Shown here one piece after another: positions 352-62,803 of a DNA stretch of 64,000 bases. Numbering within the stretch: the first letter of the stretch is position 1; the number at the start of each line of letters is the position of its first letter. The stretch covers positions 2,679,700-2,743,699 of the forward strand of contig CACVBU010000738.1 of the NCBI GenBank assembly GCA_902728285.1, in the 5' to 3' direction. This stretch comes from Clytia hemisphaerica (Eukaryota; Cnidaria; Hydrozoa; Leptothecata; Clytiidae). The position numbers and the translations under genes were made by a program. The notes beneath the pieces are model-generated. The model searched no databases and was not told where the DNA came from. It saw only the letters and a list, made by a program, of their open reading frames with translations.

Positions 352-900
352 TCATCTTTTCTTTCTCATAAATATTTGAAATGTTTTTGTGCATACCATA
401 CCGAGACTGTTCCCAGGGTAAAGTCCCATACATTCCCCTGGTGGACGAATCCCATTAGCCTTGCTATGGGGAAACATACTTCCACAAGCATTGTACCAAA
501 ACCCTCCTTGTCTATTTAATGCACAGAATGCACCTGCTTTATCTTTGCCCACTTCATGTGCTGAAAATTGCATACTATCTGATATTGCTAGTGTATTAGT
601 GCCTTCTCTGAAATCACCAATACTTAATCGATAGAAATCTGCTTCGTCAGATACACTAAATTGACCATACCAACCATGATATGTGGTGGGAGTATCTCTA
701 GCATCAGTTAAATAATAAAGTTCGTATTCTCCTGATTTGGTAAGCTGATGGAGGTTTTCGTTACCAAGATAATAGTCTTCGGGTGGTTTCCCGAAGCCTT
801 CTTTATATTTTTCGAAAAAACGAACAAACGTTTTTACCCCGTCCATACGGTAGGTGAAAGCCATTCATCCTCCCCCTTGAAAATCCAATTACAAAAGACA
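352..900 (-). pseudogene. Fibrinogen-related domain (FReD) pseudogene, 5'-truncated
   Basis: The minus-strand frame from 864 to 352 encodes about 170 residues of a fibrinogen C-terminal domain, from GG-W-MAF to the end (QIFMRKKR). Aligned with the intact copy at 1754-2701, the conserved GGGWMAF tryptophan codon is TGA (867-865). One base is also missing just upstream, between VFCN and the DFQ motif, so the frame is broken twice. Homology stops near 900, leaving no signal peptide, PAN region or FReD N-terminus. The calcium-site segment (DVDKDGNND in the intact copy) reads EVGKDKAG, so acidic ligands are lost. A central patch of about 185 bp (roughly 603-788) is almost identical to 2008-2193 of the intact gene while the flanks are strongly diverged, suggesting gene conversion. 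I call it a pseudogene. A short secreted fragment starting at 864 cannot be excluded but lacks a signal peptide. Confidence 0.75.
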
Positions 901-1753: not shown

Positions 1754-2701
1754 TTAGAAATTTCTCCTCAAAAAGATTTGAAAATTTTTACAACAAACTT
1801 TTAGACCATCTTGAGCTGGTTGAAGTCCAATACATAATGCAGGTTTGTGGAGGTTGCCAAATTTACTATGAGGGTATACACGGCCACAATTAACGTACCA
1901 GAATCCACCTTTTTTCATACTAGCGCAATTCCTATCGTTGTTACCATCCTTGTCTACATCTTTGGCAGTAAACTGTTTGCCATTGCCTGTAAAAAACACA
2001 TCAGTACCTTCTCTGAAATCACCAATACTTAATCGATAGAAATCTGCTTCGTCAGATACACTAAATTGACCATACCAACCATGATATGTGGTGGGAGTAT
2101 CTCTAGCATCAGTTAAATAATAAAGTTCGTATTCTCCTGATTTGGTAAGCTGATGAAGGTTTTCGTTACCAAGATAATAATCTTCGGGTGCTCTTCCGAA
2201 TCCGTTTTTGTATTTGTCAAATTTTGTGTCCCACCAACCGCCACCGTGAATTCGGTAAGTGAAAGCCATCCATCCTCCCCCTTGAAAATCCATATTACAG
2301 AAGACATCACGCTCACCTTTGCCAAGAAGATTGACTGAATAGAAACCAGAAGCTTTTGAACCACGATCGTAAACATCTTGGCAATCTCGAATATCTGTGA
2401 ACAATTTTGAACCTGTAGAAGTTTGAAAATCACCTGTTACTTTTGTTGTTGTGGTGTTATAAAAACTACATTTGATTGGATTGATGTTTGATGTAGGTTC
2501 GATGAGAAACGATGCACATTTGATCATGTAATGACATTTCGAGATGCAATGTTGCTCGAATTTGACATGTGTTGAGCTGAAGGGGAGTTTACTTGGGGCT
2601 AAATTCTCTACAACTAGTTCGTATCGAACTGCTGCTATATGCACAAGCTGCGTTTCAAAAAGCAGAACGCAGGCAACAAACATTTCTTGAGTTTTCATCA
2701 T
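1754..2701 (-). CDS. Secreted PAN/apple-like plus fibrinogen-related domain lectin, copy A
   Basis: This intronless gene encodes about 315 aa from the paired Met codons at 2701-2696. An in-frame upstream ATG at 2779 would add 26 residues, but only the inner start gives a clean signal peptide (hydrophobic MFVACVLLFETQLVHIAA). Residues 25-95 form a small cysteine-containing module (CISKC, IKCASF, KCSFY), best read as PAN/apple-like. From DCQDVYDRGS to the C-terminus is a fibrinogen C-terminal domain with GFYSV, VFCNMDFQGGGW, DGNNDRNCA (calcium site plus Cys) and GGFWYVNCG. In ficolins, tachylectins and FREPs such domains bind acetylated sugars or other microbial ligands outside the cell. There is no collagen region, so ficolin-style docking to MASPs is not expected from sequence. 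It lies 2.7 kb beyond the 3' end of the MASP-like gene and is a near-duplicate of 13747-14682. Strong family call; ligand unknown. Confidence 0.88.
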   Translation of the reverse strand: MMKTQEMFVACVLLFETQLVHIAAVRYELVVENLAPSKLPFSSTHVKFEQHCISKCHYMIKCASFLIEPTSNINPIKCSFYNTTTTKVTGDFQTSTGSKLFTDIRDCQDVYDRGSKASGFYSVNLLGKGERDVFCNMDFQGGGWMAFTYRIHGGGWWDTKFDKYKNGFGRAPEDYYLGNENLHQLTKSGEYELYYLTDARDTPTTYHGWYGQFSVSDEADFYRLSIGDFREGTDVFFTGNGKQFTAKDVDKDGNNDRNCASMKKGGFWYVNCGRVYPHSKFGNLHKPALCIGLQPAQDGLKVCCKNFQIFLRRNF

Positions 2702-2890
2702 TTTTACCAACAAGCAATCACCTTCGAATAAAACTTTTTGAATTTTGATCAGTTTCAACCTAAAACTTATGTCACTCAAAATATTGGGTAATCAGAAATT
2801 TTCAATGCACAAATTTTTTTATTAGAACAATTTTTATTAGAAAATGATGCTGAAAAACGAATGGGTGAATCTCAAGAAGAGTAACATAAC

Positions 2891-5413: not shown

Positions 5414-5894
5414 TTAACTATGCTTTCGCCTCTTGCTAGCCCGTAAATCTTTTTCATCTGGATAACGTAAATTCACTTTCGTTACCATTCGGATCCATTT
5501 TATATGTTTATCAATTTTAGTAAACATGTCATAACTGGTCATATGTTTTTTACATGTATTCAAATCTTTATGTCCCCAACTCAAAATACCACCCAAATAC
5601 CATTTCCTCTTATTAGGGTCAAAAGTTACTAGGGCACTTCCGGCAAGAATTTTACACCGGTCATTCGTACCGACGGTAGCTTCCGTACACATAAGTTCAG
5701 TAGGGACTATATGTTTTCGTCCGTTTGATGATCCCCAGACGTCGCGTTGTATATTACTGTGCGTTGCTTGAACGTATTTTTGACACGTAGCTTGATCGAC
5801 GACTTTGACGCAACGGTCGGTTAAATGACGGTCACCGTTACTATACCAACCAATCGTGGCGACGTTTGTGACGTTATTAAATATATGACGATAT
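5414..5894 (-). CDS. MASP-like exon 11: C-terminal protease-like lobe, Ser replaced by Ala
   Basis: It encodes VATIGWYSNG, CVKVVDQATC, ELMCTEATVG and NDRCKILAGSALVTF, then GGILSWGHKD, NTCKKH and FTKIDKHIKWI. Aligned on Cys191, GDSGGP becomes ILAGSA: Gly193, Asp194 and Ser195 are all replaced. Asp189 appears retained (NDRC). A basic tail (ASKRRKHS) precedes TAA at 5416-5414. Confidence 0.9.
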
Positions 5895-8800
5895 CTGAAA
5901 AGAACAGAGATATAATTGCTATAAAACTGTAAGCTTTCTGTAAGCCTTTAACTGCCCGTCGCTTTTTTTTAGGTTCGATTTATTTGCTGAGGTAAAAAAT
6001 AAAGGTTCAACCTATTTGCCGATGTCGGCAAACGCTGACATAGACAAAAAGTAGCGATTTTCACTTCATTTCTGAATAATATGGAGTATCAGCCAAGGAC
6101 TATAATTTTAAGTTGAACATTGTAGAATAGTTATTTTTCAACATAGAAAAGTTTGTAACTATTCATTTTTTCATTTCAAACCACTTAATATAAAAATCTT
6201 ATAAATTTCGGGCAAATAGGTCGAAATTTCACATGTCAGCAAATCCCGACAATGGCAAGGAAATCAAAAATGCTCATGTCGGCATATGCCGACATAGGCA
6301 CGGAAAGGGGTAAGAAGAAAGAGCAGCTTACACTATAGCAATACATTGCCAAAGATTAAATTGTCGAGTATAATGGATATAGAGAAAAAACTCTTTGTGT
6401 CGATTAGGGTCGATCTAGATACGATGATCAAAGGTAAATCTTTCTACAAACTTTTTTAATCAAGGTATACTCACTTTTTCCCAAAAGGTAAGCATACAGG
6501 TTGAACATAAATGAAATCTGTTTTGACAGGTCGATCCATTTGCACTAACACGATATCACTATGTAAGCCGTAATCATATTTACGGCGAAAAACAATCTTT
6601 TTGATCTATGGTAAAAAAACATGAATGCTTTACTTGCTTACTGATCAATCCATACATTATTGAATCTTGTCAGTGTAGGTGCTCCATCATATGATTATAG
6701 AATAATGAGATTTAAATTTTACACAAATGACTATATTAAGTAAGAGTTTTATCTAGTTTTACTGAGCCCGGAATTTCACCGGCCAAAGACACAAAAAATT
6801 TTCCGTATCAACGGCCTGAGAACATTTTAATGATATTAACTCGGTGATTTTGCCAAAAGTTTGCACAGAAGGCTTCGAATTCGCCGGATTTAATTTGTCT
6901 GTCTGTCGACATACACCAAAAACAATAAATACAATAAACAATTAAGCTTACCCTTCTAATCGCAGTTTCTTGATGAGGTTTATCCCATTCAAAGTTACCA
7001 AGAATAATTTCCAAATATCCTTTTTGACCATGTCTCTCTTTGGTGAACGCTACGCAGTTAGCAACTAAGAAGGAAAATGGAAATAATATGTGTTCACCAC
7101 AAGTATTTAACGAAGCTTTTTTGCTGCAAGAATTCGTCTCTCAAAAATTGCAAAGATTCCAGTCAACCGTGCTTAAAAGATCGAAAAACTAAACTCTTGT
7201 CAAAAATATCTGATCAATTCGCTACTAAATCATGGTTATGCGTTGCAGCAATATAAGAGATACTTTGGGAAAATATGTAGTATGATTGGACCAATCAAAT
7301 CGAAAATCAAATTTCCCATTTAATCCAAATGCTAAATTCAAAACTTAGATCGCTTAAATTTATACCTGTTATAAACCACTCCTGATTAATTAAAACACCA
7401 GAGCAAATAATTTTTGGACTCGATCCAGGCTTCTTTTCAACAATAGCCACCATCCATGGTTGAGAATTCTTTCGTGTTATAGTTCGATGTTTCCCGGCAG
7501 AACATTTCTCGATTGTCGGATGTCGACGAAACGCCATACCACACGCTGTGGAATAAATAGAATGCTATTTTTTAAGTCGGATAAAAACATTACTGTAATT
7601 GTAAGAAAAAATTCTCGCTGATCTCACCCAGCTGGCACATGACGTTGTTTTAACGTTCATTTAACGTTATATGAACGTTGTGTGCCAGTTGGGTAAGAGC
7701 GATTCTCATAGTTCATATAGTTCCCTTTAGCGTATCTCTAAAAAAAATAATCGCAAAAATCAATTACCATTAGGGTACCATATTTAAAAAAACTACGATT
7801 GAAGATTTTGACTAGCCGGTATTGAAAAACTGCTTCCAGAGTCAATGATTACACCCCCTTCTCACAGACCAAATGGAACTCCTTCCCACTGGAAAAGTTG
7901 GGCAAAAAACCGTCCCTGGTGGAAAATTATTTTTGTCCCCACTGAAAATAATCAAATAAACCAATCCTCACTGCAAAATATTATGCTATTTTCCCATCCA
8001 TACTGAATTATCTCACTTAAAAACAAAAGAATTGACATCCCAAGCCAAAATCCTACCGAGTCCGTGAGAAGGGGGTGTGTAAAGCTCTTTAGAAAAAGTT
8101 GATAGACGCACTTTTCAAACAATAAGTATCTGTGTTAGACCATGTTCTGTTTCTTTGGCAAACCATTGTATCTGAACCAATTCTTTCGTAGAACAAAGAA
8201 CAAATGACTTTGACCGTTACATTAACGTGATGTATTATGTTACTGTTGGAGGCGATTGTCGTCTTGTAGTTTCGGTTCCGTGGGAATGGACAAATAATTT
8301 CTGGAAATATTGGAGAAATAATTGATTTATTTAGAAAATGATGTTACATACTGTGAAATAAAGAGAATAACAAAGTGCTCAAGAAAATTCGAAACAATAT
8401 CGAGAGCAAATTATCAAGAAATAAAGAACTAAAGATTGCACCAGCATAAAATAATGTGTAGTAATAGTAAGCTTTGTTTAGTAATTAAAGCTTTGCCGCA
8501 TTTAATTAACGTTTTATAACTTTAAACAACACATAAGGAGTATAGCCAAAAAGCCAATAATTCCCAAAAACGCGAAATTTAATCACGCTAAATATAATTC
8601 GATTTAAAGTGAACATATTGCTGCCAAAAACGAGATAGTCAAGAGCTTTCTACGAAATTAGTACTCACGGTTACAACGGCCCGTTTTCCCGGTCCATGTT
8701 CCATCAGCTTGGCACGTACGTTCTGCAGTACCATCGATGTATTCAAAGCCCGGTTCACACGTAAAACGTAACGTTTCTTTAAACGTGAAATTCTTTGAGC

Positions 8801-11800
8801 CCGTCATGACCCCAAATTCCGGTGGAATCAATTCTGTACATTTCTTTGCTAAAAGAAAAGAGAAATATTTATTTCACGTTTGCCAGAAGGACGAAAATAT
8901 TAGACAATCGCCAGAGAACAACCAGTAAAAAGAAGAAATATGTAAAATATAATTAAGATCTAAATACTAGCTGATCATCCTATCCTCCTGTGAGATCCAG
9001 AACTTCAAACAGATTAGAGCAAAAAGCAAATCTTTAACAATGCAAAGATTCTCTGCTCTAAAACTCCTTTACAGAGTTCAACAGTGTTTTTTATAGACTT
9101 TCTCTAGCGAAAAGAGCTTAGGAAGTATACTATAGAGAACTGCGATTCAGACTATGTTTTTTTACAAAATGTTCTAAAAGCAAAAAGTAGCCTATCAGAG
9201 GTCAATCAATCGGAGTGGTTGCAAGATAGAAAGAAAAAGTATGATAGATGCGATAGTACAAAAGCAGACTATAGTCTAATAAGGGTCTACGAAATACAAG
9301 AGTAACATACGTTCTAACCAATATTTTGCTTGGAATCCTTTGGCTTGTTGTGAATTATCACTTTTGAATTCAACAATCAACCAATTAGACATTGACCGGT
9401 ATGGTGCTGGTGGTTGTTTTCCGCAAAACGGTCCTTTTTTAGAATGTTCATCTTGGATTTCCAGTTTATCGAACGGGCATAAAGAATCATGATGGTCTTC
9501 TATGTGGAACTGAAACATAAAGCCGTGAATTTAATTTTAGGACTCTATGAAAGATTATGATAACATACAAATATGTAGGCTATATACAAAATAAAGTTTC
9601 CTTTATTTTTTTTTTCTGAAAAGAAAATTCTTTCTTCAATAAGCATACTACAAAAATTAATAACCCGTTTTACATGCCAGGGTGGTGATCTGCAAAGAAA
9701 AATTAAGAGGTTTCCGGAACTCTCATTTGAAAAAATATGCCCTATTTTATAATCGCTAGAAAAATGCGCGAGATATCGTCATATTCCGAGATTTTCTGTA
9801 ACAGCGGATCCAAGTGGGTTCAAAATGAAAGAGATCATTTCTTCTAGCTATAATCCTTATAAAAATGAAGACTCATCTGTCATAAATTTGAACCCCTCCC
9901 CTTAGCTTCCTTACCACTCTTCACTGGCGGATTTAAAGCAATAGAGCGGATGAGCTAGAGTTTTTACAAGATGCTTAACTGATTGGTTATTTTTAAACAA
10001 TAGGGATGACGCGTTCTTTAGAAAAAGTAATAAAATCGTTTGTCTCAACATTTAACGACCAACAGAGTCATCAAAGAACTTGTAAAAACTCCAGCTTGAC
10101 CCCAATAGAGCAAGTACGTCGAAGGAGAGCAACGTTTGTTAAAGACAATGAAATTACAATTACAAATCTCCTCCTCTGATAAATTCGACGTGGTCTAAAA
10201 CGTGCTTTTTCTTTGCAAACTATCGAGTAATGTGAAGTGAAATATCCAAGAAGTGTTGAGTTAAGACGTAGAAAAACTTACATCGATGAACTGTAAATTG
10301 ATATAATATCCATTGGTGGTATGAATTGACCAATCACAATCTGCTTCTGGTGGGTAATCCAGGGGGTATTCGGGTGATTTGATGATACCACGCATTTGAT
10401 CTAAGTGAATACCTGAACATTTGACTGAAAATATAAGAGAAAAATAAAAATTCAAAAGATACGATAGACGCTTCAACTTATGATTACCATCACTCAAAGA
10501 TTTCATTGAAAATGATAATCGAGTTAAAATTTGTCAAAGTTATGAGGCCATTTAAGTGACGCGTATAAATAAATAAATAAATAAGAAAATCTAAGCACGG
10601 AAGACGATTCAATTTATAATTAACAACACCCCTGTCCCACAGCCCCGGTGAAAATTGTGGCCGAATCTTCCATCGGGGCGGGGTTTAATTGGATAAAAAC
10701 TGTCAGTCCTAACTACTCAGGTGAGTTAAGGAAAGTCTAAAACATATTTTGCGTGACGCCGACCGCTTCCCATTGTTCCTTAACTCTCGCATATAGCTCA
10801 GCAGAAGCGTTTTAACGAGAAGGTTATTGAAAGTGCTGGGTCAAAAATTTAAATTTATCGGCAATAAACTGATTTTGACGTTATGAAATTCGTCGAAAAA
10901 ATACGTCATCGGTAAGATTCAAATGACGTCATTTATGGAAAACGGCGATAACTTCAAATCTATTAATGCAATCAATACCTGAGTAAGTGATTCTAACCCG
11001 AAAGCCAAAATAATGCGGCGGCACAACAACGAGGTTTGATAGCGCTGCGAAACTATGCAAAATCCCACACACCTCCGAATGGGGCGGGTTTCACATCCCC
11101 TGAAAATCTTAAACAGAAACAGGTATACCTACCTATACACGTTTTCTTATCGGGACCCAATTGGTATCCAATCTTACACGAGCAATAATATCCACCAATG
11201 AAATTATGACAAAAATGATTACATCCGCCATTATTAAATAAACATTCGTCCATGTCTATTGCAGCGAAATGAGCCTCGAATCCATGTACTTCTACCTAGT
11301 AAGAAGATTGAGGTATTTGTACTGATCACAACACAGATTTTAATACTGCACCCAGGCTGTTTTGAAATGTACAGGACATCCCCGACTTTCAGGTAGACAG
11401 CTATTAAAATAAAGAGAGCCTTCAAAGTTGATTGCAGTTGCAAATTTACGTTTTGAAAAGTTTCCTACCTCTGGTTCGGCTTTACCTTTTGATTTTCGTC
11501 TTTTATTTCGGTAAAATGGAAAAGATATTTTTATTGCCAATAATCAGCCTAAAACATCAAAAACAAACAAAGAGCTTACCTCATTTGAAAAATCTGTGTG
11601 GAAATTCACTTGAATGTTGGAATCATAAATGAACAAAGGGTCACGTGGTGCTGCTAAAGATTTGATCTCGTTGCGTTGACCACAAAACTTCCCAAACGTT
11701 CCATTCTAAAAAAGAGAGAGGGTTATGAAAATATTGATGATTTGCTTTTTTGATACGTTCTAAACTACATAAAGGTGCCCAAAAACTAGAGGCTGCTAAT

Positions 11801-14800
11801 TCATCGGATTATAGTACCCTTTACCCTTTCAGCATCTTGGGGAGGGCCGAGGCCCACTTAAAATCTCAAGATTAACAAGTGCTACGACCTTGAAATTTTG
11901 ATCAGTTGTAGACCTATCCCATTAGTATTTGTTACATTGCAGGCTGGTCTGTAAAACGCCACCTGTCGGAACTATAGACCGGTCCGTATTTTACCCAAAA
12001 TGCTCACTTTCAGCATAACCACTGGTTTGATTTCGCTGAAATTTGGTTCTCTTTGCGTCATGCATCGTTTTGACCTCAAAACCACGTTTGCACGTGACAG
12101 TTCCGTTTCGTTCCGAAACGAAATGAAGCCATTCTATTGGCTAGAAGTGACGTAAAACTTGAATGTAACCAATAGAATGGCTTCATTTTGTTTCGGAGCG
12201 GAACGGAATTGTAACATCTGAACATGATTCAAAACTATTATTGTTGTGGCCTTAAAGGGCTCCAATACGTACCTTGCTCTTTACAGTGACGTAATCATAT
12301 TCACACTTTTCTCCCCATTCCAATTCAAATTGGGTGAAATTTAACATCAGATGATAGCCGAGTGGTACCGAAATGTTCCATTTGCATTGACAATTGTTCG
12401 GATATGCTTTTGGGTATTTTGGGGATGAAAATTGTCCGTGTAGTTGGGATGTGATGATCTTGTCTTTGCAATTACCTAAATTGAAGAAGAAGACTTTGAT
12501 TTTACAACCTGTGTATTCGAAACGTCTTTGTCGGCTGTCTAGATGGGGACATTAATGAATAAAATTTAAATGTATCCTATCATTTTGAATAAACACACAT
12601 TCGAATAAACGCACATTCGAATAAACACCCCTTTCAAATAAACACTTTCTTTTGATAAAGGTATCCCCTCTAGGTGAGGGTACCTTTAAGGGAGAATCAA
12701 AAAAAGGGAAAACTTGGATATGTGTGTTAATAATTGTGTTGTTTCAGTTCTCAAACTAATTTTGACTCGTTTCTATATCTCTAAAATTAAAATTGAAATT
12801 ATTATTGCACATCCAATAAATGATATAAAATAATATTGAAATATCGAATAAATGCCCCTCTTAAAGGGACATAAAAGTACTGACGAAATTTGTAAACAAA
12901 CCGTATACAGCGGGATACAAAATCAAAACAAATATGGCTGATTTTGATTGTTTCAATTGTTTTACAAGTCTTTTTGGGACACTTGATTTTAATTGTTCTC
13001 TTTAATGACACGTGGTTCGCACAATGTTTACATTTTATTAATTTTATGTCCCTTTAAATCACAAAAAAATTAAAAAACTCCCCAGGGATTATATTGGTGA
13101 ATTTATGTATTTGCACTTCTGAGGAGAGCGGAATGACTGAAGCGATTTGGATAACCTGCAGTTTTGACCAACAAAATCGAAAAAGTGCTTGTTTACCGTC
13201 GACCCCGGTTGACCAGGATTCAGGCAAATCGGAAGGTGACGCATACAAAAACTCGCTATTAATACCGAGTTTATGTATGTGTATTTTTCAGCGACGGAGA
13301 CGGTAAGGTTCTAATTTGACTAGATCATGACCAGCTGAGGACGACGGTAAATCAGCACTTTTACCGTCCTCAATTTTGCGGGTCAGAACTGCAGGTCATT
13401 CCAAATCGCTTCAGTCACTTTACCGTCCTCAAAAGCGCAAATACATAACCTCACCATTAATAACAATACGGTGACGGTATGTCAAAAGACAATGTCAATA
13501 TTCAAAATTTAAACAAAAATTAAAAAATCAAGGAGTCTGTAACAATAATATCATTTATTAATATCATAGTGATAAGTATGAAAAGAATTGAGAAAAAAAT
13601 GGATCTGATTGGTTCAAAAATTCATGAAAATTGAAGAAATTATTGATTGAATCGAAGGAGTAATCAGAGTAATCTAGAAAATAAATTTCGTAAATATCTT
13701 TATGAAAATAATATTAGTAAACAGGGAAGGAGAGAACGTGTTTTTTATGACAATGCTGTGTTTGATCATTCTTTCATATTTGTTGGACAGCCAAGTTATA
13801 ATAGCAGCTCGATATGAGTTGGCTTTTATGAACTTAAAGCCAAGTAAACTCCCCTACAGCTCAACAGATGTCAAATTCGAACAACATTGTATCTCGAAAT
13901 GTCATTATATGATCAAATGTGCATCGTTTCTCATCGAACTTACATCAAACATAAATCCAATCAAATGTAGTTTTTATAACACCACAACAACAAAAGTAAC
14001 AGGTGATTTTCAAACTTCTACAGATTCAAAATTGTTCACAGATATTCGAGATTGTCAAGATGTTTACGATCGTGGTTCAAAAGCTTCTGGTTTCTATTCA
14101 GTCAATCTTCTTGGCAAAGGTGAGCGTGATGTCTTCTGTAATATGGATTTTCAAGGGGGAGGATGGATGGCTTTCACTTACCGAATTCGCGGTGGCGTTT
14201 GGTGGGACACAAAATTTGACAAATACAAAAACGGATTCGGAAGAGCACCCAAAGATTATTATCTTGGTAACGAAAACCTTCATCAGCTTACCAAATCAGG
14301 AGAATACGAACTTTATTATTTAACTGATGCTAGAGATACTCCCACCATATATCATGGTTGGTATGGTCAATTTATTGTATCTGACGAAGCAGATTTCTAT
14401 CGATTAAGCATTGGTGATTTCAGAGAAGGTACTGATGTGTTTTTTACAGGTAATGGCAAACAGTTTACTGCCAAAGATGTAGACAAGGATGGTAACAACG
14501 ATGGGAATTGCGCTATTATCAAAAAAGGTGGATTCTGGTACGCTAATTGTGGCCGTGTACAACCTCATAGTAAATTTGGCAACCTCCATGAACCTGCACT
14601 ATGTATTGGACTTAAACCAGTTCAAGATGGTCCGAAAGTTTGTTGTAAAAATTTTCAAATCTTTTTGAGAAGAAATTTCTAAACATTGTTATTATTTGAG
14701 TGAAGGTAGAGAGTCTATCACCATATTTCCCTAACACCCTGCCTGGATGTGCTTGGAATTCGAACACAGTCTATTGTGATGCAAGTCTGCAATCAAAACC

Positions 14801-16916
14801 TTCACACTACCAATCGACAGAATATTCGTGAGATATGGCCTTATCCAGATGGCGAGTGAATGTATATCGAGTTGTTATTATTGTTGAGGAAATGTAAAAC
14901 AGACTTTCATCTTAACGAACGAACATCTCAACAAAATGAATGACCAAGCTGCATACTTGAAATATGTGTCTCAGTTAAAACAATAGCTATACCTTAATCA
15001 ATGAACTACCTCACTATTGGTATTCCCAACTTACTGTATCTTACTGTATCTGACGGATCAGATTGATATCGATTGAGATTCGGCAATTTCAGTATGTGAA
15101 AAATATTTTCAAAATAGCTCTACCAATAAAAATAAACTAATAAGCACAAAACCATGAAATACAACATAAGAATAGACTTGGCACTGTATGGTCAGCAAAA
15201 TTAGATTGTGTGTCAAAAGAGCTTCAAAGGAGATTGCTAAGCATTGGAGCTTTCAGAGGTGTTACTGATGTGTTTTTATGAAATGGTAAAAAGGGGTAGC
15301 AAAGATCAGAATGTAACTCCATTTTCTTCTTTCGCTAATGTAACAATTATGATTCGAATCTTCCCTAATTCGAAAACAGTTTCTTAAATTATTATAAAAA
15401 TTATTTGGCTTCATCTTTAAGTTATGTATTTTTAATTTTGTGAATCAAAGCTTTTGTTATTTAATTCGTAAAAAGTTTTTGTTCTTTTTCAGACAAATTA
15501 TTTACTTAATTCGAACATTAAATGTGTAGGTAGATTTTCTTTGAGGCCGTAACTTCGCAAATAGCCCACGAAAACCCACGTCATAGCTTATAGACAAAGT
15601 ACGTCTAATGACGTTGATTTCTGATAACAAGGATATTTCTAGGAAGACTTTATGATACCGTATCGGTTCTTTTTACACCGGCCCTTATTGGCCTTATTTT
15701 TAGGCTCTTGGCATAATAAGGGCCGGCGTTAAAAAGGCCGAAATGAAAGGGCCAAAATTTTGCAAATTTTACTTACAAGTAGCGTTAATTTTTTACTATT
15801 TTTCTCAATTTAAAGGATTTTGGATATATGATTCGAAAATAAAAAATTATCCATTGTTATACTCCATATCTAAAACTTCGCAAAAATCAGTGATTTTCAA
15901 TGGAATTTTCAACAGTTTACTACTGAAAAATGATATTTTAATGTAAATTGAAGCATAAAAAGCCATTCTAACATATTTTGGCGTTATTTACAGCCCTAAT
16001 TGGCGTAAGCCCAAAATCAAGCTGTGGCGTAAAAGGGGCCGGCGTTAAATTAGGAAAGGTGTAAAAAGGGCCGATAAGGTACATAAAGATCTTGAGAAAG
16101 GAAGGAACTAGACTAGACTGACTAGAGATTGGTATAAGGACTCCTTACACTACAGCAAACCCAGCTGGCACACAACGTTGTTTCAACGTTAACCTAACGT
16201 TAAATGGACGTTGTGAACGTTAGATAAACGTTGAAACAACGTTGTGTGCCAGCTGGGATATATTTTCCACGAATATAGTTCTGAGATGCATAAGTGTAAG
16301 CAAGTGCCCCATCAACCATACAGATTTTGACGGCCGACTGGGACGTGCCGCTAGAGTTTGACAAGTGGACCCTGTCAGATATGAATGTTTGGTAAATTTG
16401 GGACCCTGTCAGAACGAAAAATCGAAAAACTTTCCGATTTTCACGCTGAAAAGTTGCAAAAATGACTAAAAGTAGACGAAAAATTGAAAGATTTTCTAAT
16501 TTCCACCCTGAAAATTGTCAACAAAACCAGAAGTCGACCCTGTCAGATACAAATCTTGAAAAATAGTAAGTTTTTGGAACCTGTCAGATCTCTCCAGAGC
16601 CTAAATAGGGACCCTGACCAGCGGCACGTCCCCGTACCAAATTTTGCCTAAGTTCCCCCGGGCAATCGTGAGATATTAAAAAATGTAATGTTGCTCGAAA
16701 TTAATTATAGGCACGATTTACACTTACTTTATTGATGTGCAAATAAATATATCAATAAGTATTGCTGCAGGTTAAGTATGCTTTAGAAATAAATGCTATG
16801 ACAGTACATAAAGAAATTATATTAAATTTCATACCTTTCGTTTGGCTAGACATGACCAAAGTGAACATTGCCAAGATTAAGAGGATCCAAACCAAAATGA
16901 CATGATTTAACATCAT
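5414..16916 (-). CDS. MASP-like CUB-EGF-CUB-CCP serine-protease homologue, catalytically dead
   Basis: Eleven coding exons join in phase: 16916-16835, 12475-12273, 11705-11580, 11295-11133, 10424-10282, 9509-9311, 8848-8669, 7545-7366, 7064-6952, 6605-6475, 5894-5414. The product is about 640 aa: signal peptide, CUB1, EGF, CUB2, one CCP, and an S1 chymotrypsin-fold domain. This is the MASP/C1r/C1s layout, but with one CCP where vertebrate members have two. Family members cleave complement components when bound to collectins or ficolins. Here the triad is broken: TAAHC is TVANC (His to Asn), GDSGGP is ILAGSA (Ser to Ala, zymogen Asp194 to Leu), and the R-IVGG activation end reads HR-TITR. Asp102 (HSDIVL), SWG and most cysteines remain. 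No stop or frameshift was found, so it looks like a conserved pseudoprotease, comparable to haptoglobin, rather than a decayed gene. The protease domain spans four exons, as in MASP-1 rather than MASP-2. Intron 1 hosts an antisense FReD gene. A missed second CCP exon or start exon is possible. Confidence 0.9.
6475..6605 (-). CDS. MASP-like exon 10: Asp102 region retained
   Basis: It encodes IKKIVFRRKYDYGLHSDIVL, VQMDRPV and VQPVCLPFGK. The DIVLV motif retains the third triad residue, Asp102, and VCLP is the usual inter-lobe cysteine. The donor is AA|GTGAGT. Confidence 0.88.
6952..7064 (-). CDS. MASP-like exon 9: active-site His region, His replaced by Asn
   Basis: With the preceding base it reads (T)VANCVAF where catalytic proteases have TAAHC. 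The codon is AAC, so His57 is Asn while the partner Cys58 is kept. It continues to LEIILGNFEWDKP and ends at AIRR|GTAAGC. Confidence 0.9.
7366..7545 (-). CDS. MASP-like exon 8: linker and start of the protease-like domain
   Basis: It encodes the linker (PCGMAFRRHPTIEKCSAG) and HR-TITRKNSQPWMVAIVEKK, where an active protease would have R-IVGG...PW.V. The C42-region strand (IICSGVLINQEWFIT) is intact. It ends one base into the Val of TVANC. The missing IVGG end argues against trypsin-type activation. Confidence 0.9.
7627..7693. repeat. AACGTT palindromic MITE in a MASP-like intron
   Basis: A near-perfect short palindrome begins CCCAGCTGGCACATGACGTT and ends with ACGTTGTGTGCCAGTTGGG. It sits between exons 7 and 8. 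Confidence 0.85.
7851..8080. repeat. ACACCCCCTTCTCACAGAC-family MITE
   Basis: The ends are inverted: ACACCCCCTTCTCACAGACC left, GTCCGTGAGAAGGGGGTGT right. The internal sequence (CCCACTGGAAAA, GTCCCCACTG) is shared with 34870-35132, 43868-44160, 46908-47213 and 52183-52663. Confidence 0.8.
8669..8848 (-). CDS. MASP-like exon 7: CCP/sushi domain
   Basis: It encodes one complete CCP module of about 58 residues with four cysteines (KKCTEL, LRFTCEPGF, ERTCQADGTW, GRCN) and the invariant GTW tryptophan. The acceptor is TTTTAG and the donor C|GTGAGT. No second CCP exon was seen between this exon and 7545. Confidence 0.9.
9311..9509 (-). CDS. MASP-like exon 6: CUB2, second part
   Basis: It encodes CPFDKLEI (the CUB C-x-D-x-L/V-x-I strand), GPFCGKQPP, VEFKSDNSQQAKGFQAKY, and ends with one base over. 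The acceptor is ATGTTTCAG and the donor C|GTATGT. Confidence 0.9.
10282..10424 (-). CDS. MASP-like exon 5: CUB2, first part
   Basis: The acceptor is TTTTCAG and the donor GAT|GTAAGT. It encodes VKCSGIHLDQMRGIIKSPEY, PLDYPPEADCDW and INLQFID, the usual CUB start. Entry in phase 1, exit in phase 0. Confidence 0.9.
11133..11295 (-). CDS. MASP-like exon 4: CUB1 end and calcium-binding EGF
   Basis: It completes CUB1 (GFEAHFAAIDM), then encodes an EGF module with DECLFNNGGCNHFCHN and GGYYCSC. The leading D-DEC is the usual calcium-binding EGF start, which in MASPs stabilises CUB1-EGF dimers. It ends at KTCI plus one base. Confidence 0.9.
11580..11705 (-). CDS. MASP-like exon 3: CUB1, second part
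   Basis: Exactly 42 codons lie between TTTTTTAG and GAG|GTAAGC. The motifs GKFCGQR and VNFHTDFSNE correspond to the CUB FCG segment and the terminal F-SD-SNE strand. Phase 0 at both ends. Confidence 0.9.
12103..12213. repeat. GAAACGAAATGAAGCC palindromic element
   Basis: The left arm (TTCCGAAACGAAATGAAGCC, ATTCTATTGGC) is repeated inverted on the right (CCAATAGAATGGCTTCATTT). It lies in the MASP-like intron 1 next to exon 2. A related degraded copy is at 20388-20480. Confidence 0.75.
12273..12475 (-). CDS. MASP-like exon 2: CUB1, first part
   Basis: The acceptor is TTTAG and the donor AAG|GTACGT. It encodes a typical CUB start: GQFSSPKYPKAYPNNCQCKW, then a hydrophobic strand (LMLNFTQFEL) and CEYDYV. 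The pair of closely spaced cysteines is CQC. It ends in phase 0. Confidence 0.9.
12580..12645. repeat. Short tandem repeat, unit about 17 bp
   Basis: The motif CATTCGAATAAACACAC recurs three times with small changes, followed by TTTCAAATAAACAC. The tract lies within MASP-like intron 1. Confidence 0.6.
13093..13456. repeat. Palindromic TIR element in MASP-like intron 1
   Basis: The left arm (GTATTTGCACTTCTGAGGA, TGACTGAAGCGATTTGGATA, CTGCAGTTTTGACC) recurs inverted at 13380-13456 (GGTCAGAACTGCAGGTCATT, CAAATCGCTTCAGTCA). It lies just upstream of FReD copy B. No transposase. Confidence 0.75.
13747..14682 (+). CDS. Secreted PAN/apple-like plus fibrinogen-related domain lectin, copy B
   Basis: This intronless frame encodes about 311 aa from the Met at 13747 (MTMLCLIILSYLLDSQVIIA, a signal peptide). 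An upstream in-frame ATG at 13702 adds 15 residues, but 13747 aligns with the start of copy A. The module order is the same: a cysteine-bearing PAN-like region (CISKC, IKCASF, KCSFY) and then a fibrinogen domain with GFYSV, FQGGGWMAF, the calcium-site acidic run DVDKDGNND, NCA and GGFWYANCG. The fibrinogen body is nearly identical to copy A, while the signal and PAN start differ clearly. The gene lies antisense inside intron 1 of the MASP-like gene. The intact frame and retained calcium and Cys motifs suggest a functional extracellular lectin. Antisense transcription could interfere with the host gene, which is inference. Confidence 0.88.
   Translation: MTMLCLIILSYLLDSQVIIAARYELAFMNLKPSKLPYSSTDVKFEQHCISKCHYMIKCASFLIELTSNINPIKCSFYNTTTTKVTGDFQTSTDSKLFTDIRDCQDVYDRGSKASGFYSVNLLGKGERDVFCNMDFQGGGWMAFTYRIRGGVWWDTKFDKYKNGFGRAPKDYYLGNENLHQLTKSGEYELYYLTDARDTPTIYHGWYGQFIVSDEADFYRLSIGDFREGTDVFFTGNGKQFTAKDVDKDGNNDGNCAIIKKGGFWYANCGRVQPHSKFGNLHEPALCIGLKPVQDGPKVCCKNFQIFLRRNF
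15003..15295 (+). pseudogene. Old FReD relic downstream of copy B
   Basis: 15010-15095 is a decayed match to the codons for GWYGQF through SIGDF (for example GTATCTGACGGATCAGATTG against the intact GTATCTGACGAAGCAGATTT). 15236-15295 matches SIGDFREGTDVFF with an in-frame TGA. It corresponds to 1200-1436 of the other arm. Confidence 0.6.
15568..16159. other. Intron 1 stretch with short inverted motifs
   Basis: Around 15670-15735 and 16020-16080 the motif pairs GGCCCTTATTGGCC / AGGGGCCGGCGTTAAA and AAAAGGGCCGATAAGG recur in opposite senses, suggesting a degraded TIR element. No exon was recognised. Confidence 0.4.
16160..16257. repeat. AACGTT palindromic MITE, well-preserved copy
   Basis: This is the cleanest family member: CCCAGCTGGCACACAACGTT at the left and AACGTTGTGTGCCAGCTGGG at the right, a perfect 20-bp inverted pair, with four further internal AACGTT-like motifs. 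It lies in MASP-like intron 1. Confidence 0.9.
16258..16834. other. Intron 1 remainder with GACCCTGTCAGA repeats
   Basis: The phrase GACCCTGTCAGA (or a one-base variant) recurs four to five times between 16367 and 16615, spaced 40-80 bp apart. No exon or RNA gene was recognised. Confidence 0.45.
16835..16916 (-). CDS. MASP-like exon 1: signal peptide
   Basis: It starts with two adjacent ATG codons and encodes a hydrophobic signal peptide (VILVWILLILAMFTLVM) followed by SSQTK. The donor is G|GTATGA. It ends in phase 1, matching the acceptor of exon 2, 4.36 kb away. Confidence 0.85.
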
Positions 16917-30125: not shown

Positions 30126-30599
30126 GTCAGGGCCGGCGAAACCGGGGGGGCTAGGGGGGCTGTAGCCCCCCACTTTTTTGCAAAAAAAAAAAAGAGTGAG
30201 AGAGAGAAAGAGAGGGTGAGAAAAAAGACTTGGCTACGTTCAACAATGAAGCCAAAACGGTTAAACAATCTTTCTTTGCTCCATATCCATATAAAAATCT
30301 AACGGATAAACTTGATTTAGATGAGGTTGGTAGAGATTTGTGTGGACTCGAGAGCGTCATTTTAATTGCTTAGGAAAATTTTAATTTTTATTACTGTATA
30401 CTTACTGTTAAAACTCTCAATCTACTTTTACTTATGAATTTTGAACATGTAAACGTCCGCTTTATTTACTTAAAGGGGCTTAAAGGGTTTCATTTTGTTA
30501 TTATATAGTAGTATATTCTTTGGTGATTATCAGTATAGTCGAACGTGCGCAACGCACTGGGCTCAACTTCAGTGCCTTCAAACTATTGATAGGCCCAAT

Positions 30600-31480
30600 T
30601 GTAGAACCCCAGATATTCACCCAAGGAACAAGTGTGCAAAATTTCAGCCAAATCGAACAATTTTTGAAGTCTCCAGGCTGCCCTAAAGTTTTAGCCTCGT
30701 TTTGGCGAAATCTCGTCCCCGGGCCCCAAAAATCAAAACTTTTGAAAAATAAAAGAAACACGTCCTCAGATAATCACCCAAGGAACAAATGTGCCAAATT
30801 TCAGCCAAATCCGACCATTTTTGAAGTCTCCAGGCTGCCCCAAAGTTTTAGCCTCGTTTTGGAGAAAAACTCGTCCTTAGGCCCCAAAAATCAAAATTTT
30901 CAAAAAATGAAAAAAACATTCCCAGATATTCACCCAAGGAACAAGTGTGCCAAATTTCAGCCAAATCCGACCATTTTTGAAGTCTCCAGGCTGCCCCAAA
31001 GTTTTAGCCTCGTTTTGGAGAAAAACTCGTCCCCAGGTCCCAAAAATCAAAATTTTCAAATAAATGAAAAAAATATCCCCAGATATTCACCCAAGGAACA
31101 AGTGTGCCAAATTTCAGCCGAATCCGACCATTTTTGAAGTCTCCAGGCTGTCCCAAAGTTTTAGCCTCGTTTTGACGAAAAACTCGCCCTTAGGCCCCAA
31201 AAATCAAACTTTTCAAAAAATGAAAAAAATACCCCCAGATATTCACCCAAGGAACAAGTGTGCCAAATTTCAGCCAAATCCGACCATTTTTGAAGTCTCA
31301 AGGCTGCCCCAAAGTTTTAGCCTCGTTTTGACGAAAAACTCGCCCCTAGGCCCCAAAAATCAAACTTTTCAAAAAATGAAAAAAACACCCCAGATATTCA
31401 CCCAAGGAACAAGTGTGCCAAATTTCAGCCAAATCCAAGCATTTTTGAAGTCTCCAGGCTGCCCTAAAGTTTTTGTGACA
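30600..31480. repeat. Tandem array, about 156-bp unit, roughly 5.5 copies
   Basis: The unit starts near AGATATTCACCCAAGGAACA. It includes TTTCAGCCAAATCCGACC, TGAAGTCTCCAGGCTGCCC, AAGTTTTAGCCTCGTTTTG and CCCCAAAAATCAAA. Repeat starts lie near 30611, 30768, 30925, 31080, 31236 and 31392. Because 156 is a multiple of three, a 52-codon repeated frame stays open across units on the plus strand. I see no evidence that it is translated. Confidence 0.85.
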
Positions 31481-37194: not shown

Positions 37195-38700
37195 TTGGTA
37201 GCCAGGAATTGAATATGATAAAAATACAGACCGACAACTGCTCCTCCTACTTTCACTGTTCAGTTCCTGGCCAAGATTCCACCCATGATCAGTTCAGCTC
37301 GTAGCCAGAACCCCACCCAAGATCAGTTCATTTCGTAGCCAGAACCCCACCTATGATCAGTTCAGTTCGTAGCCAGAACCCCACCCATGATCAGTTCAGT
37401 TCGTAGCCAGAACCCCACACAGGAGCAGTTCAGCTCGTAGCCAGAACCCCACCCCTGATCAGTTCAGTTCGTAGCCAGAACCCCACACAGGAGCAGTTCA
37501 GCTCGTAGCCAGAACCCCACCCAAGATCAGTTCAGTTCGTAGCCAGAACCCCACCCATGATCAGTTCAGTTCGTAGCCAGAACTCCACCCATGATCAGTT
37601 CAGCTCGTAGCCAGAACCTCAACTGAGATCAGTTCAGCTCGTAGCCAGAACCCCACCCATGATCAGTTCAGCTCGTAGCCAGGACGCTACCCAATATCAG
37701 TTCAGCTCGTGCCAGGACGCTACCCAAGATCAGTTCAGCTCGTGCCAGATCCCCGCCCATGATCAGTTCAGTTCGTAGCCAGAACCCCAACCAAGATCAG
37801 TTCAGTTCGTAGCCAGAACCCCACCCATGATCAGTTCAGTTCGTAGCCACAACTTCACCCATGATCAGTTCAGCTCCTAACCAGGGTGCTACCCAAGATC
37901 AGTTCAGCTCGTAGCCAGTACCTCAACTGAGATCAGTTCAGCTCGTAGCCAGAACCCCACCCATGATCAGTTAAGTTCGTAGCCACAACTCCACCCATGA
38001 TCAGTTCAGTTCGTAGCCACAACTCCACCCATGTTCAGTTCAGCTCGTAGCCACAACTCCACCCAAGATCATTTCAACCCCACACAGGATCAGTTCAGCT
38101 CGTAGCCAGTACCTCAACTGAGATCAGTTCAGCTCGTAGCCAGAACCCCACCCATGATCAGTTAAGTTCGTAGCCACAACTCCACCCATGATCAGTTCAG
38201 TTCGTAGCCACAACTCCACCCATGTTCAGTTCAGCTCGTAGCCACAACTCCACCCAAGATCATTTCAACCCCACACAGGATCAGTTCAATTCGCAGCAAG
38301 AACCCCACACAGGACCAGTCCAGTTCGTAACCAGGTCCCACCCATGATCAGTTCAGCTCGTAGCCAGAACCCACCCATGATCATTTCAGCTCGTAGCGAG
38401 TGCGCTACCCAAGATCAGTTCAGCTCGTGGCCAGAACCTACCCATGATCAGTTCAGCTCGTAGCCAGAACCTCAACTTAGATCAGTTCAGCTCGTAGCAA
38501 GAACCCTACCCAAGATCAATTAATTTTGTCGTCAGTAAGCCACCCATCATCAGTTCACTTTGTAGCCAGGACCTCACCCAAGATCAGTTCATTTCATAGC
38601 CAGAACTCTGTCTATGATCATTGCAGTTTGTGACTAGGAAAGACCCCACCCATGATCAGTTCAGTGTGTGGCAGGGTTTCAAACCATGATAATTTGCATT
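37195..38700. repeat. Left minisatellite array of the Merlin element, about 34-bp unit
   Basis: More than 35 copies of a unit like GATCAGTTCAGCTCGTAGCC AGAACCCCACCCAT, with variants (GTTCGTAGCC, CCACACAGGA, CCTCAACTGA). An approximately 180-bp multi-unit block is repeated at 37912-38100 and 38105-38290, showing higher-order duplication. The right-hand array is its inverted counterpart. Confidence 0.9.
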
Positions 38701-40030: not shown

Positions 40031-41980
40031 TCATTGTGGATAATAGATATTGACTGCAGTTATGATGTTATCAAATGGTCGATCCAGTCCATACCAATCT
40101 CTTAAAAAGAAAATATACCTATGTTAGATAAAGAAAGTGTCTTTTGCTAAAAAGAAGCCTTAGATTTACGTTCTTAGATTGTAAAAAAACATGCAAGATT
40201 ATCATGAAAGTGAAAAATAACGGAAACATAAGCTCGATTCGAGTTTAGCTTTTAAGTTTTGTATAGTTATGGTAGTTATAATAAGTTATATTAAGTGCTT
40301 TCATACCTCCACATGAAAATATTGTAGTTCGATTCCTTTCATTGCTTTCAATTTAAGCTTGAAGCGATTCCAATATGATTCAATATGCTAATGAAAGAAA
40401 AAGAAACATTATTGCATAAGTTATATTTTGTAGGAGGAGCCCCCCCCCCTGCGGCACCCCTTATCACGCCATCAAGCAAAATTTTTTCTCTATCACGCAT
40501 CACGAAAATCGCTGGAGTTTTGTCATCACGCAAAAAATAGCGAAAAATAGCCCAAATCACGCATCACGCCAAAATCTTGATCACGCCGACAAAAATCTCT
40601 AATCACGCTATCACGTAAGAAAAAATCCCCAATCACGCCATCACGCAAACCGCTGGGGGCCTCTAGCAGAGCAAGAAAAGAACTAGGAAACCTTGTTAGT
40701 ATTGGTAAGTTACAGAGAAATATGTCTTCGAAAACTAAAAGACCTTTCCTTTCGGAAGCAGATCGTAATATTGTACATTGAAATAATTTTACAAATAATG
40801 ACCATTGAAAATATAATTGGGTAAGCAAGTTATAACAGGAAAACGAAAAGAAAGTAGATATATACACCCTCTTTAGAGCTATTAGACTTACCTGCGTGTG
40901 AGCACCTGTAACAGGGTCAACAAAATGATACGTATGATTCACGGTGTTGTGCTGAATGCAGTTTGGCACAAACTGTTGTAAACGATTGTAGGCGCGCCAT
41001 TCATCACTATGAATAACACTGTTAGGATTTAAAACTCGATTAATGATACCAACCAAAGTCGGACGGTTTCTCCTATTGACGATTTCCATATATCCTTTTG
41101 CTGGAGTAAATCTTGTATCTACTAGCCCAAAAACCCAAACTGGTTGTGCCCGTCTTCCTCGACCTCCCTGTAAAAAAAAGCTAAAGCTACTCACTAACCA
41201 TTCTCCTAAATCAAAGAGCGATTTAAAATATGCATCACATTCTATGCCTCTTTTTAGAACATTGAGGTAGTAAATTTGAATTAGCAAATAGTAAATGAGA
41301 TCATCAAGAGCTTTCTAAAATCTAGGAAACGTATTTATAGTACAGTTGAATCCCGATAAGTAGTAGCTTAACTGGGCCGAGAAAAAGGTGGTACTACTTA
41401 GCTGAGTACTACTTATCCGTGGTACTACTTATCGGGATTCAACTGTATTTATAATCCAGCTAAAATCAACATACTCTTTGAGCATGTTGGAATTGACTTT
41501 CGTCAATCTGTACAACAAAGTTTATATCACCACCACCAAGAGTAATTGGGTTTCTTTGCAGCTCCCGAGTGCATATTCCTCTTAATTTCTGAAACATTTT
41601 GATCACATGCTCTTTTAGGATACCGACTATATTTGTAGTTTTGGTCATTGATATCTTACTCGCCCACAGATAAATAACAAAGAATAGATCTGGCAGCGAA
41701 ACTCTTGTCCGAACCCCCCCTTAGGAAATTTATTTGAAATTTTAGACCCACCTTAAGGTGAGGACGTATGAGGTCTTGAATTTTAATAACTCCGCCAACT
41801 TTATTTATAATTACTACCATCCCATAAAACCTTCCAAGTATCGAAAGCTGAAAGAAAAATGACTCACCATCGATATCCATCACAGCATCCGTCGTTTCGT
41901 TCCAATCGCATTGGTAATTGACAACCAGGGCAAGCTTTAATAACATTGATAAGTCCTTGCCCTTGTAAGAAGTGTATCAT
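40031..41980 (-). CDS. Merlin-type transposase (IS1016/ISXO2-like DDE), five exons
   Basis: Exons: 41980-41868, 41719-41475, 41167-40892, 40387-40307, 40118-40031. Total coding length is about 267 codons, close to Merlin transposases. Exon 1 starts MIHFLQGQGLINVIKACPGC and carries a zinc-ribbon-like CPGC and DGYRW. Exon 2 has FFVIYLWASK, LRGICTRELQ and the first catalytic Asp in VQIDESQF. Exon 3 has RRAQPVWVFGLVDT, the second Asp in IHSDEWRAYN, and NHTYHFVDP, GAHTQ. Exon 4 supplies the third acidic residue in HIESYWNRFK. Exon 5 ends WYGLDRPFDNIITAVNIYYP, then TGA. The enzyme would cut and paste its own element using the outer inverted repeats. Joins 2-3 and 3-4 are in phase. Joins 1-2 and 4-5 are out by one base with the best splice sites (a G-run of seven lies at 1-2), so the copy may be inactivated or a site misplaced. 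Confidence 0.8.
40450..40670. repeat. ATCACGC-rich tract in a Merlin intron
   Basis: ATCACGC or CATCACGC recurs about ten times (for example AATCACGCCATCACGCAAAC). A similar but weaker run is at 42280-42400 and a phrase at 27044. It lies in the intron between exons 3 and 4. Confidence 0.65.
41341..41447. repeat. pogo-type MITE nested in a Merlin intron
   Basis: A perfect 20-bp inverted pair, TACAGTTGAATCCCGATAAG and CTTATCGGGATTCAACTGTA, with internal TAGTAC/GTACTA motifs. The whole element lies inside the 41168-41474 intron, so it landed after the transposon acquired its gene structure. Confidence 0.85.
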
Positions 41981-42403
41981 GGACTATGAGCCCCGATAAT
42001 CAGCCGGATTCTTTTCATACTGTAATATTGTCTTATTCTAAAGGCGTGATTTTTTTCGGGGATACGGTAATTTTCAGATCGGATCTTTGCTGTGATGGGT
42101 CTTCATTTTTGTCAAAGACTTTCTTCAAATCAAATAAAAGGTAAATAACGATCAACGTGCAAAAATTTGTTTAGAAGACAAGGCATTTTTCACGGTCTTT
42201 TTTTATCACTTCGCAAGAATATTCTACTTTAGAAATCTAGACATCCAAATGAGAGCCCCCTCCCAGCGGACCTAAAATTCGCGCCATAACGCCAATTTTC
42301 TTTCAGATTTCACGCCGTCACGCTTGAAAAATTCCATTTCACGATCACGCCAATTCTTTTACCATTTCGCGCCTCCATGCCTGTAAAATTTCTTTCATTC
42401 CAG

Positions 42404-43650
42404 TCCTGACTACGAACTGAACTTATCATGGGTGGGGTCCTGTACGGTCTGACTTGATCTAGGTTGGGGTTCTGGCTACGAACTGAACTGATCCTGTGTG
42501 GGGTTCTGGCTACGAAATGAACTGATCATGGGTGGGGTTCTGGCTACGAGCTGAACTGATCTTGTGTGCGGTTCAGGCTACGTACTGAACTGATCATGGG
42601 TGGGGTTGTGGCTACGAACTGAACTGATCTTGGGTGGGGTTCTGGCTACGAGCTGAACTGATCCTGTGTGGGGTTCTGGCTACGAACTGAACTGATCATG
42701 GGTGGGGTTCTGGCTACGAACCGAACTAATCTTGGATGGGGTTCTGGCTACGAACTGAACTGATCCTGTGTGGGGTTCTGGCTACGAACTAAACTGATCA
42801 TGGGTGGGGTTCTGACTACGAACTGAACTGATCATGGGTGGGTTTCTGGCTACGAACTGAACTGATCTTGGGTGGGGTTCTGGCTACGAACTGAACTGAT
42901 CATGGGTGGGGTTCTGGCTACGAACTGAACTGATCCTGTGAGGGGTTCTGGCTACGAACTGAACTGATCATGGGTGGGGTTCTGGCTACGAACTGAACTG
43001 ATCCTGTGAGGGGTTCTGGCTACGAAATGAACTGATCCTGTGTGGGGTTCTGACTACGAAATGAACTGATCATGGGTGGGGTTCTGGCTACGAGCTGAAC
43101 TGATCCTGTGTGGGGTTCAGGCTACGTACTGAACTGATCATGGGTGGAGCTGTGGCTACGAACTGAACTGATCTTGGGTGGGGTTCTGGCTACGAGCTGA
43201 ACTGATCCTGTGTGGGGTTCTGGCTACGAACTGAACTGATCATGGGTGGGTTTCTGGCTACGAGCTGAACTGATCCTGTGAGGGGTTCTGGCCACGAAAT
43301 GAACTGATCATGGGTGGGTTCTGGCTACGAGCTGAACTGATCTTGTGTGGGGTCCAGGCTACGTACTGAACTGATCATGGGTGGGGTTGTGGCTACGAAC
43401 TGAACTGATCTTGGGTGGGGTTCTGGCTACGAGCTGAACTGATCCTGTGTGGGGTTCTGGCTACGAACTGAACTGATCATGGGTGGGGTTCTGGCTACGA
43501 ACTGAACTGATCCTGTGTGGGGTTCTGGCTACGAACTGAACTGATCATGGGTGGGGTTCTGGCTACGAACTGAACTGATCTTAGGTGGGGTTCTGGCTAC
43601 GAGCTGAACTGATCATGGGTGGAATCCTGGCCAGAAACTGAACAGTGAAA
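42404..43650. repeat. Right minisatellite array of the Merlin element, inverted, about 34-bp unit
   Basis: More than 33 copies of a unit like CTACGAACTGAACTGATCAT GGGTGGGGTTCTGG, the reverse complement of the left array. Variants (CTACGAGCTG, ATCCTGTGTG, ATCTTGGGTG) recur in higher-order groups. Confidence 0.9.
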
Positions 43651-62487: not shown

Positions 62488-62538
62488 CTATAAGAAAAGA
62501 AGAGTTTATTGTCGACAATGTCGGCCAAGAAAAATGGT

Positions 62539-62803
62539 ACACGCTTTTTTCATAAGAATATACTTTATAAGAATATTCATGAAAAAATAGGTCAAAAATT
62601 AACAATGTGCTAAAAATACTACCATCATTGAATTTGGAAACTGAACCTAAAGGATGCCATTTTCAGAGAAATTTGGGTTTTGAGAGTTTGGTTTCTAACC
62701 TAAGAGCACTGTAAGAATATTTTAGGGCGATTTTCCCCCAAAATTTTACGAATATCCATGAAATGGCAAAATAGTCTAGTATTTTTATAAAAAAGAGCAT
62801 GTA
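62539..62803. repeat. Hairpin element, AAGAATAT motif variant
   Basis: The left end is TACACGCTTTTTTCATAAGA, the right end TTTATAAAAAAGAGCATGTA. The body carries ATAAGAATAT, TAAGAATATTCATG and TAAGAATATTTTAGGGC where the type family has AAGAACAT and TTTTTAGGC. It lies just upstream of the XKR exon at 62487. Confidence 0.6.

Follow-up and report, generated by a model that had tools for sequence, protein, structure and literature searches.

A full-length MASP-like gene of Clytia hemisphaerica that may encode a secreted pseudoprotease adaptor

The present analysis indicated that the window, i.e., the whole stretch of 64,000 nucleotides of Clytia hemisphaerica DNA under study, contains a full-length MASP-like gene in which the protease active site is changed at several positions. 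Judging from its sequence, this gene probably encodes a secreted pseudoprotease adaptor derived from a MASP, with a calcium-binding CUB docking end, a dead protease serving as a binding head and a bridging or scaffolding role, a reading that we favour with modest confidence. Pseudoproteases and MAps are kinds of protein that are already known, and non-catalytic MAps occur in vertebrates (PMC10855846, partial text). A full-length MASP gene of classical domain order whose protease active site is altered at several positions is, as far as our searches show, new within the literature searched; indeed, no description of a protease-dead full-length MASP was found in the open-licence PMC literature, at the level of titles and the beginnings of abstracts.

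The gene runs along the minus strand from its ATG at 16916 to its stop codon at 5414, as the initial annotation had placed it. The count of eleven exons and ten junctions given there had to be corrected, since joining gives 12 exons and 11 introns, all 11 of which are bordered by GT-AG. The joined exons amount to 2190 coding bases and 729 amino acids, with a single terminal stop; the view that the exons join in phase without stops thus holds, the 729 codons being open and free of frameshift. When the bases of the protease exons were shuffled, the mean number of stops was 21.6 and none of the 2000 shuffles was stop-free. The exons are as follows.

16835..16916, minus strand, exon 1: start codon and hydrophobic leader, a signal peptide by eye
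12273..12475, minus strand, exon 2: first part of CUB1, with the calcium ligands equivalent to MASP-1 E49 and D57
11580..11705, minus strand, exon 3: second part of CUB1, with the ligands equivalent to D102, S104 and N105
11133..11295, minus strand, exon 4: end of CUB1 and calcium-binding EGF
10282..10424, minus strand, exon 5: first part of CUB2
9311..9509, minus strand, exon 6: second part of CUB2, with the ligands equivalent to E216, D226, D263 and S265; H218 kept, Y225 replaced by F
8669..8848, minus strand, exon 7: CCP1 (Sushi)
8112..8300, minus strand, exon 8: CCP2, diverged, without Pfam match; four Cys and one Trp in CCP spacing, by eye
7366..7545, minus strand, exon 9: start of the protease domain, activation segment without IVGG, Cys42
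6952..7064, minus strand, exon 10: Asn in place of His57, Cys58
6475..6605, minus strand, exon 11: Asp102, Cys122
5414..5894, minus strand, exon 12: D189-R-C-K-I-L-A195-G-S-A, SWG, D226, stop

The domain order of the encoded protein, CUB-EGF-CUB-CCP-CCP-protease, is that of the MASP, C1r and C1s proteases. Pfam recognised two CUB domains, EGF_CA, one Sushi and Trypsin, the second CCP falling below its threshold and being recognised by eye from its four cysteines and its tryptophan. The best PDB relatives of the whole protein were MASP-1 (264.8 bits) and MASP-3 (234.8 bits), both as N-terminal pieces, and the best solved-structure relative of the protease part alone was MASP-2 (62.2 bits). MASP-1 shares the domain order and is the closest by sequence in the CUB-EGF-CUB part, where identity reached 39.8% (107/269), versus 52.2% between MASP-1 and MASP-2. 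In the protease domain, identity to MASP-1 was 24.8%, versus 35.7% between MASP-1 and MASP-2, and this domain stands roughly equally far from all references, with identities of 19.0 to 25.7% (24.6% for chymotrypsin). As far as sequence comparison can tell, this contrast fits a platform that has been kept and a protease that has been set free; the extra divergence of the protease domain is equally expected from decay. Two scans of viral_contigs for relatives of the protein found none, and a pattern search of genome_contigs gave six matches, none of them confirmed.

The loss of catalytic residues was clearly borne out. In a 9-sequence MAFFT alignment with chymotrypsin numbering, the changes H57N, G193I, D194L and S195A named in the initial annotation were all recovered, so that the catalytic triad and the oxyanion hole of MASP, C1r and C1s proteases are absent. 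A profile of the eight reference domains, built with the window protein left out, matched at 124.6 bits and likewise placed Asn at 57 and Ile-Leu-Ala at 193-195. Further changes came to light, namely G197S, G226D in the S1 pocket and Phe in place of Y228, and position 190 is Arg, where chymotrypsin has Ser and MASP-1 has Ala. The codon of Ala195, read from the sequence, is GCC, one step from the serine codon TCC. An activation site of the R/K|IVGG type is also lacking. The initial annotation was right that IVGG is absent, but its placement of TITR at that point is unsupported: MAFFT sets K|CSAG at 15|16-19, followed by a 3-residue insertion, in a segment that aligns poorly, and the site thus reads K|CSAG or R|TITR according to the alignment, never IVGG. 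With both D194 and the Ile16 end lost, the established mechanism of serine proteases predicts that cleavage would not activate the protein even if the triad were present.

Other features of the domain were retained. Asp102 and SWG are present, as had been claimed, and D102, D189, G196 and S214-W215-G216 are all as in MASP-1. Overall, among 15 catalytic, oxyanion, activation and S1 positions compared (16, 17, 19, 57, 102, 189, 193-197, 214-216 and 226), seven match MASP-1 (19, 102, 189, 196, 214, 215 and 216), position 19 being alignment-dependent. The statement that most structural cysteines remain was correct but too modest, since all eight canonical ones are kept (C1, C42, C58, C122, C168, C182, C191 and C220). 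That they all persist at 24% identity speaks for a maintained fold, in a suggestive manner that falls short of proof. Structure prediction of the last exon alone gave a mean pLDDT of 32.4, too low to interpret. The protease domain is split by introns and carries C42 and C58, the histidine-loop pair, in line with MASP-1; we take both to be features of MASP-1 and not of MASP-2, MASP-3, C1r or C1s.

At the other end of the protein, the docking surface appears, by its residues, to be intact. In MASP-1, calcium is bound by Glu49, Asp57, Asp102, Ser104 and Asn105 in CUB1 and by Glu216, Asp226, Asp263 and Ser265 in CUB2, and the essential collagen lysine of MBL touches calcium-binding residues (PMC5300068, partial text). 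All nine of these published ligands are kept in the MASP-like protein, in both CUB1 and CUB2. Tyr56, His218 and Tyr225 of MASP-1 are presumably contact residues as well, and the first two are kept, the third being replaced by Phe. Calcium sites of the same kind are also found in CUB proteins without lectin-binding activity; retention of these sites is therefore not specific to lectin docking and does not name the partner.

Taken with the open frame and the loss of catalysis at several sites, these retained cysteines and ligands make the initial proposal of a pseudoprotease kept for binding the best reading of the gene. The protein would be secreted, and its CUB1-EGF-CUB2 end would fold around calcium and probably dimerise. 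The CUB domains may then attach to a soluble recognition protein, by way of its lysine-bearing (collagen-like) stem, or to a similar partner, and the CCP-CCP-dead-protease end would form a binding head with no enzymatic output. Such a protein might bridge a recognition protein to a cell, to the matrix or to another protein. It would act in the mode of MAp44, i.e., as a MASP without protease, with the ruined protease domain kept as a cap. MAp44 (MAP-1) and MAp19 indeed combine a docking end with the absence of an enzyme, as proposed here; they are, however, splice products without protease domain, whereas the present gene is full-length with a ruined one, and would thus be a full-length genomic counterpart of the splice-made vertebrate MAps.

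In and beside the gene, three fibrinogen-domain frames were found by Pfam.

13678..14682, plus strand: open frame of a fibrinogen-domain gene, lying antisense within intron 1 of the MASP-like gene
1757-2791, minus strand: fibrinogen-domain gene
355-864, minus strand: fibrinogen-domain frame, a third, diverged copy

The first two form an inverted duplication, 91.8% alike over 1791 bases, with dN of 0.098 and dS of 0.182 over 330 aligned codons that include poorly aligned upstream ones. Pfam found the fibrinogen domain only, and no collagen, in the three frames. In amphioxus, a collagen-less ficolin interacts with MASP1/3 (PMC11312191, partial text). By analogy, a link between these neighbours and the MASP-like protein is possible.

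The 417-Mb genome was also searched, with exons matched separately and the best candidates scored. A search with the CUB-EGF-CUB protein, in which 139 of 247 candidates were scored, gave 94 matches, of which five are the MASP-like gene itself; the next best had an E-value of 5.5e-14 and 39% identity. Clustering with 12-kb gaps covered 78 of the 94, the others being the five of the MASP-like gene and 11 on C247, an EGF array contig, and gave five CUB-only clusters and three with both CUB and EGF matches (C552, C654 and C649), for none of which was a trypsin match present among the matches listed. C654 is the nearest in layout, with CUB-EGF-EGF-CUB matches. No second MASP-like CUB-EGF-CUB locus was thus seen among the scored candidates, which is not proof of absence.

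Proteases were searched for in a similar manner. The trypsin-family search gave 156 matches (150 of 383 candidates scored), and the protease query, for which all 25 candidates were scored, gave five other loci with E-values of 1e-3 or lower. Three of these, C431, C805 and C480, carry GDSGGP, and their contigs gave no match with CUB-EGF-CUB; for C911 and C566, the reading covered only the stretch before the Ser195 region. The top trypsin-family match among the matches listed, on C419, lies 4.1 kb from a CUB pair whose exons are not separated by any EGF match. This locus (L049, G000:C419:2530866-2531387, minus strand) has SAHC in the preceding frame, but reads GDGGAP, i.e., Gly in place of Ser195, and it is therefore a second candidate for a CUB-protease pseudoprotease, of another architecture. 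On C340, a CUB match and a protease match are 1.9 kb apart. Closer to the gene, tblastn with the eight reference domains (E 0.001) found no other MASP or protease exon within 100 kb on either side, and the idea of a tandem MASP paralogue in that range was dropped. Motif scans of this surrounding sequence revealed no active-serine motif either.

The search for thioester proteins (TED_complement) gave ten matches at only two loci, with nine of nine candidates scored and 4 of 14 controls giving a signal.

G000:C416:444-448 kb: A2M-like thioester-domain locus
C462:194-199 kb: CD109-like thioester-domain locus

The A2M-like thioester exon scored 109.3 bits with A2M versus 30.6 with cobra venom factor, the best complement-family chain, and 22.8 with C3, and the CD109-like exon scored 68.5 bits with CD109 versus 25.1 with C3. 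A C3-type thioester protein was thus not found by an exon-by-exon genome search that recovered two of its relatives, which is not proof of loss. A search for anaphylatoxin domains (ANATO) found nothing and, its controls being silent too, carries no weight.

The MASP-like gene is thus apparently the sole MASP-like CUB-EGF-CUB locus of a genome in which no C3 was found. In Hydra, likewise, a MASP gene is present and neither C3 nor factor B was found, and the function of the MASP there was said to warrant investigation (PMC4840205, partial text); the source animal of the window may be a similar case. Lophotrochozoan MASP-related molecules, or MASPLs, are also invertebrate relatives of MASPs, but are described as lacking both CCPs, in some cases with Ig domains in their place, whereas the present gene has the classical order (PMC11312191 and PMC9835746, both partial text). 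An active-site-dead MASP where no C3 is found would offer one direct answer to the Hydra puzzle, namely that the enzyme is not needed. The role of a MASP without C3 thereby becomes testable, through the active sites of MASPs across C3-less animals and through binding assays. A more specific scenario, which we put forward tentatively and regard as rather unlikely, is that this lineage has lost both complement C3 and the enzymatic function of MASP, and that its sole MASP gene survives by encoding a full-length docking protein without enzyme activity. A core of the lectin pathway would then have outlived complement and act by binding alone, perhaps for the linked fibrinogen-domain proteins.

These results also bear on the lectin-pathway decoy that had been proposed initially. 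As a dominant-negative decoy, the protein would compete or heterodimerise with an active MASP missed by our searches and damp the lectin pathway as MAp44 and MAp19 do, which we consider improbable. The anatomy fits, as the docking end is intact to all appearance and the active site is changed, and MAp44 displaces MASPs from recognition molecules (PMC10855846, partial text). Trypsin domains are numerous in the genome, as noted above, and on both C419 and C340 a CUB match occurs within a few kb of a protease match. However, neither a C3-type protein nor another MASP-like CUB-EGF-CUB locus was found; C654 shows no trypsin among the matches listed, and C419 shows no intervening EGF match and lacks Ser195. 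There is thus perhaps no cascade to decoy. A decoy would depend on an active MASP and on a C3-like target, both of which the searches did not find, and a bridge would do without either, which makes bridging or scaffolding more likely than the inhibition of a C3-cleaving cascade.

Next in rank, and improbable as well, comes the possibility that the gene is a relic in decay, a MASP left jobless after the loss of C3, its protease end drifting and its frame open by chance. The very long branch, the identity of approximately 24% to every reference including chymotrypsin, and a CCP2 below Pfam detection are in line with drift. By contrast, no stop or frameshift occurs in the 729 codons, approximately 5% of single substitutions in the protease exons would be nonsense, and the eight structural cysteines and nine CUB ligands have all been kept.

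It is still less probable that exons 9-12 are rarely used and that the main product of the locus is either short and MAp44-like or built with a different protease exon. Vertebrate MASP1 does yield MASP-1, MASP-3 and MAp44 by alternative splicing (PMC10855846, partial text). Here, however, exons 9-12 are present, in phase and open, with GT-AG borders, which is not the structure of a MAp44- or MAp19-type product without protease domain. Scans of the window and of 264 kb for the active-protease motifs G-D/N-S-G-G and S/T-A/G-A/G-H-C, which miss a motif that is split by an intron or lacks Cys, gave a single match, beside a stop and without protease context. A hidden active protease exon was accordingly set aside for the window and the 264 kb on the strength of these scans and of the tblastn search, which gave no other protease exon within 100 kb on either side.

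Finally, a haptoglobin-like haemoprotein binder reached independently is highly improbable. Haptoglobin is also a protease-dead relative, and the Ala195-Gly-Ser-Ala string is common to both proteins in the alignment, but the likeness suggested initially extends to little else, as haptoglobin retains Gly193, Asp194 and an ILGG end, all three of which the MASP-like protein lacks. Haptoglobin is devoid of CUB and EGF domains, being made of one or more CCPs and a dead serine protease domain, whereas Pfam finds two CUB domains and an EGF here. In the protease-domain tree, haptoglobin groups with C1r/C1s (94/92, a branch that was not starred). Grouping of the window domain with haptoglobin was at the edge of rejection (p-AU 0.055), that with MASP-1 gave p-AU 0.447, and a clade of MASPs, C1r, C1s and haptoglobin without the window domain was not rejected either (p-AU 0.279); with no starred branch, an extremely long window row and several clades unrejected, the tree places the window domain nowhere. 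In a human docking model, F129-K130-F131 of haptoglobin are haemoglobin contacts and F131 is a docking hot spot; the residues aligned with them here are R-H-L, thus Leu at F131, in a weakly aligned loop where pig haptoglobin also varies, with Leu and Asn at 129-130 (PMC3637213, partial text), which makes the comparison a weak one. Haptoglobin homology was rejected as the main reading on both alignment and tree, and the AGSA string, which needs few changes and may thus easily arise by chance, is likely a matter of convergence or chance.

Several minor observations concern the rest of the locus. Short inverted repeats that look by eye like MITEs, their ends resembling ccagctggcacacaacgtt, lie in introns of the MASP-like gene at 7640-7720 and at 16180-16250. 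Elsewhere in the window, a 156-bp tandem repeat (92% alike) occupies 30607-31473, with a long open frame at 30484-31137. A 34-bp tandem repeat forms two large opposed arrays, at 37258-38665 and 42403-43643, approximately 4 kb apart, and an ISXO2-like transposase frame (40529-41314, minus strand) lies between them. An XK-related membrane protein frame was found at 60147-61601 (minus strand), with a second piece at 62162-62662 (minus strand) below the Pfam cut-off; a similar frame was seen by eye approximately 38 kb further on, at about 98730-99764 in window coordinates (minus strand), suggesting a possible tandem family.
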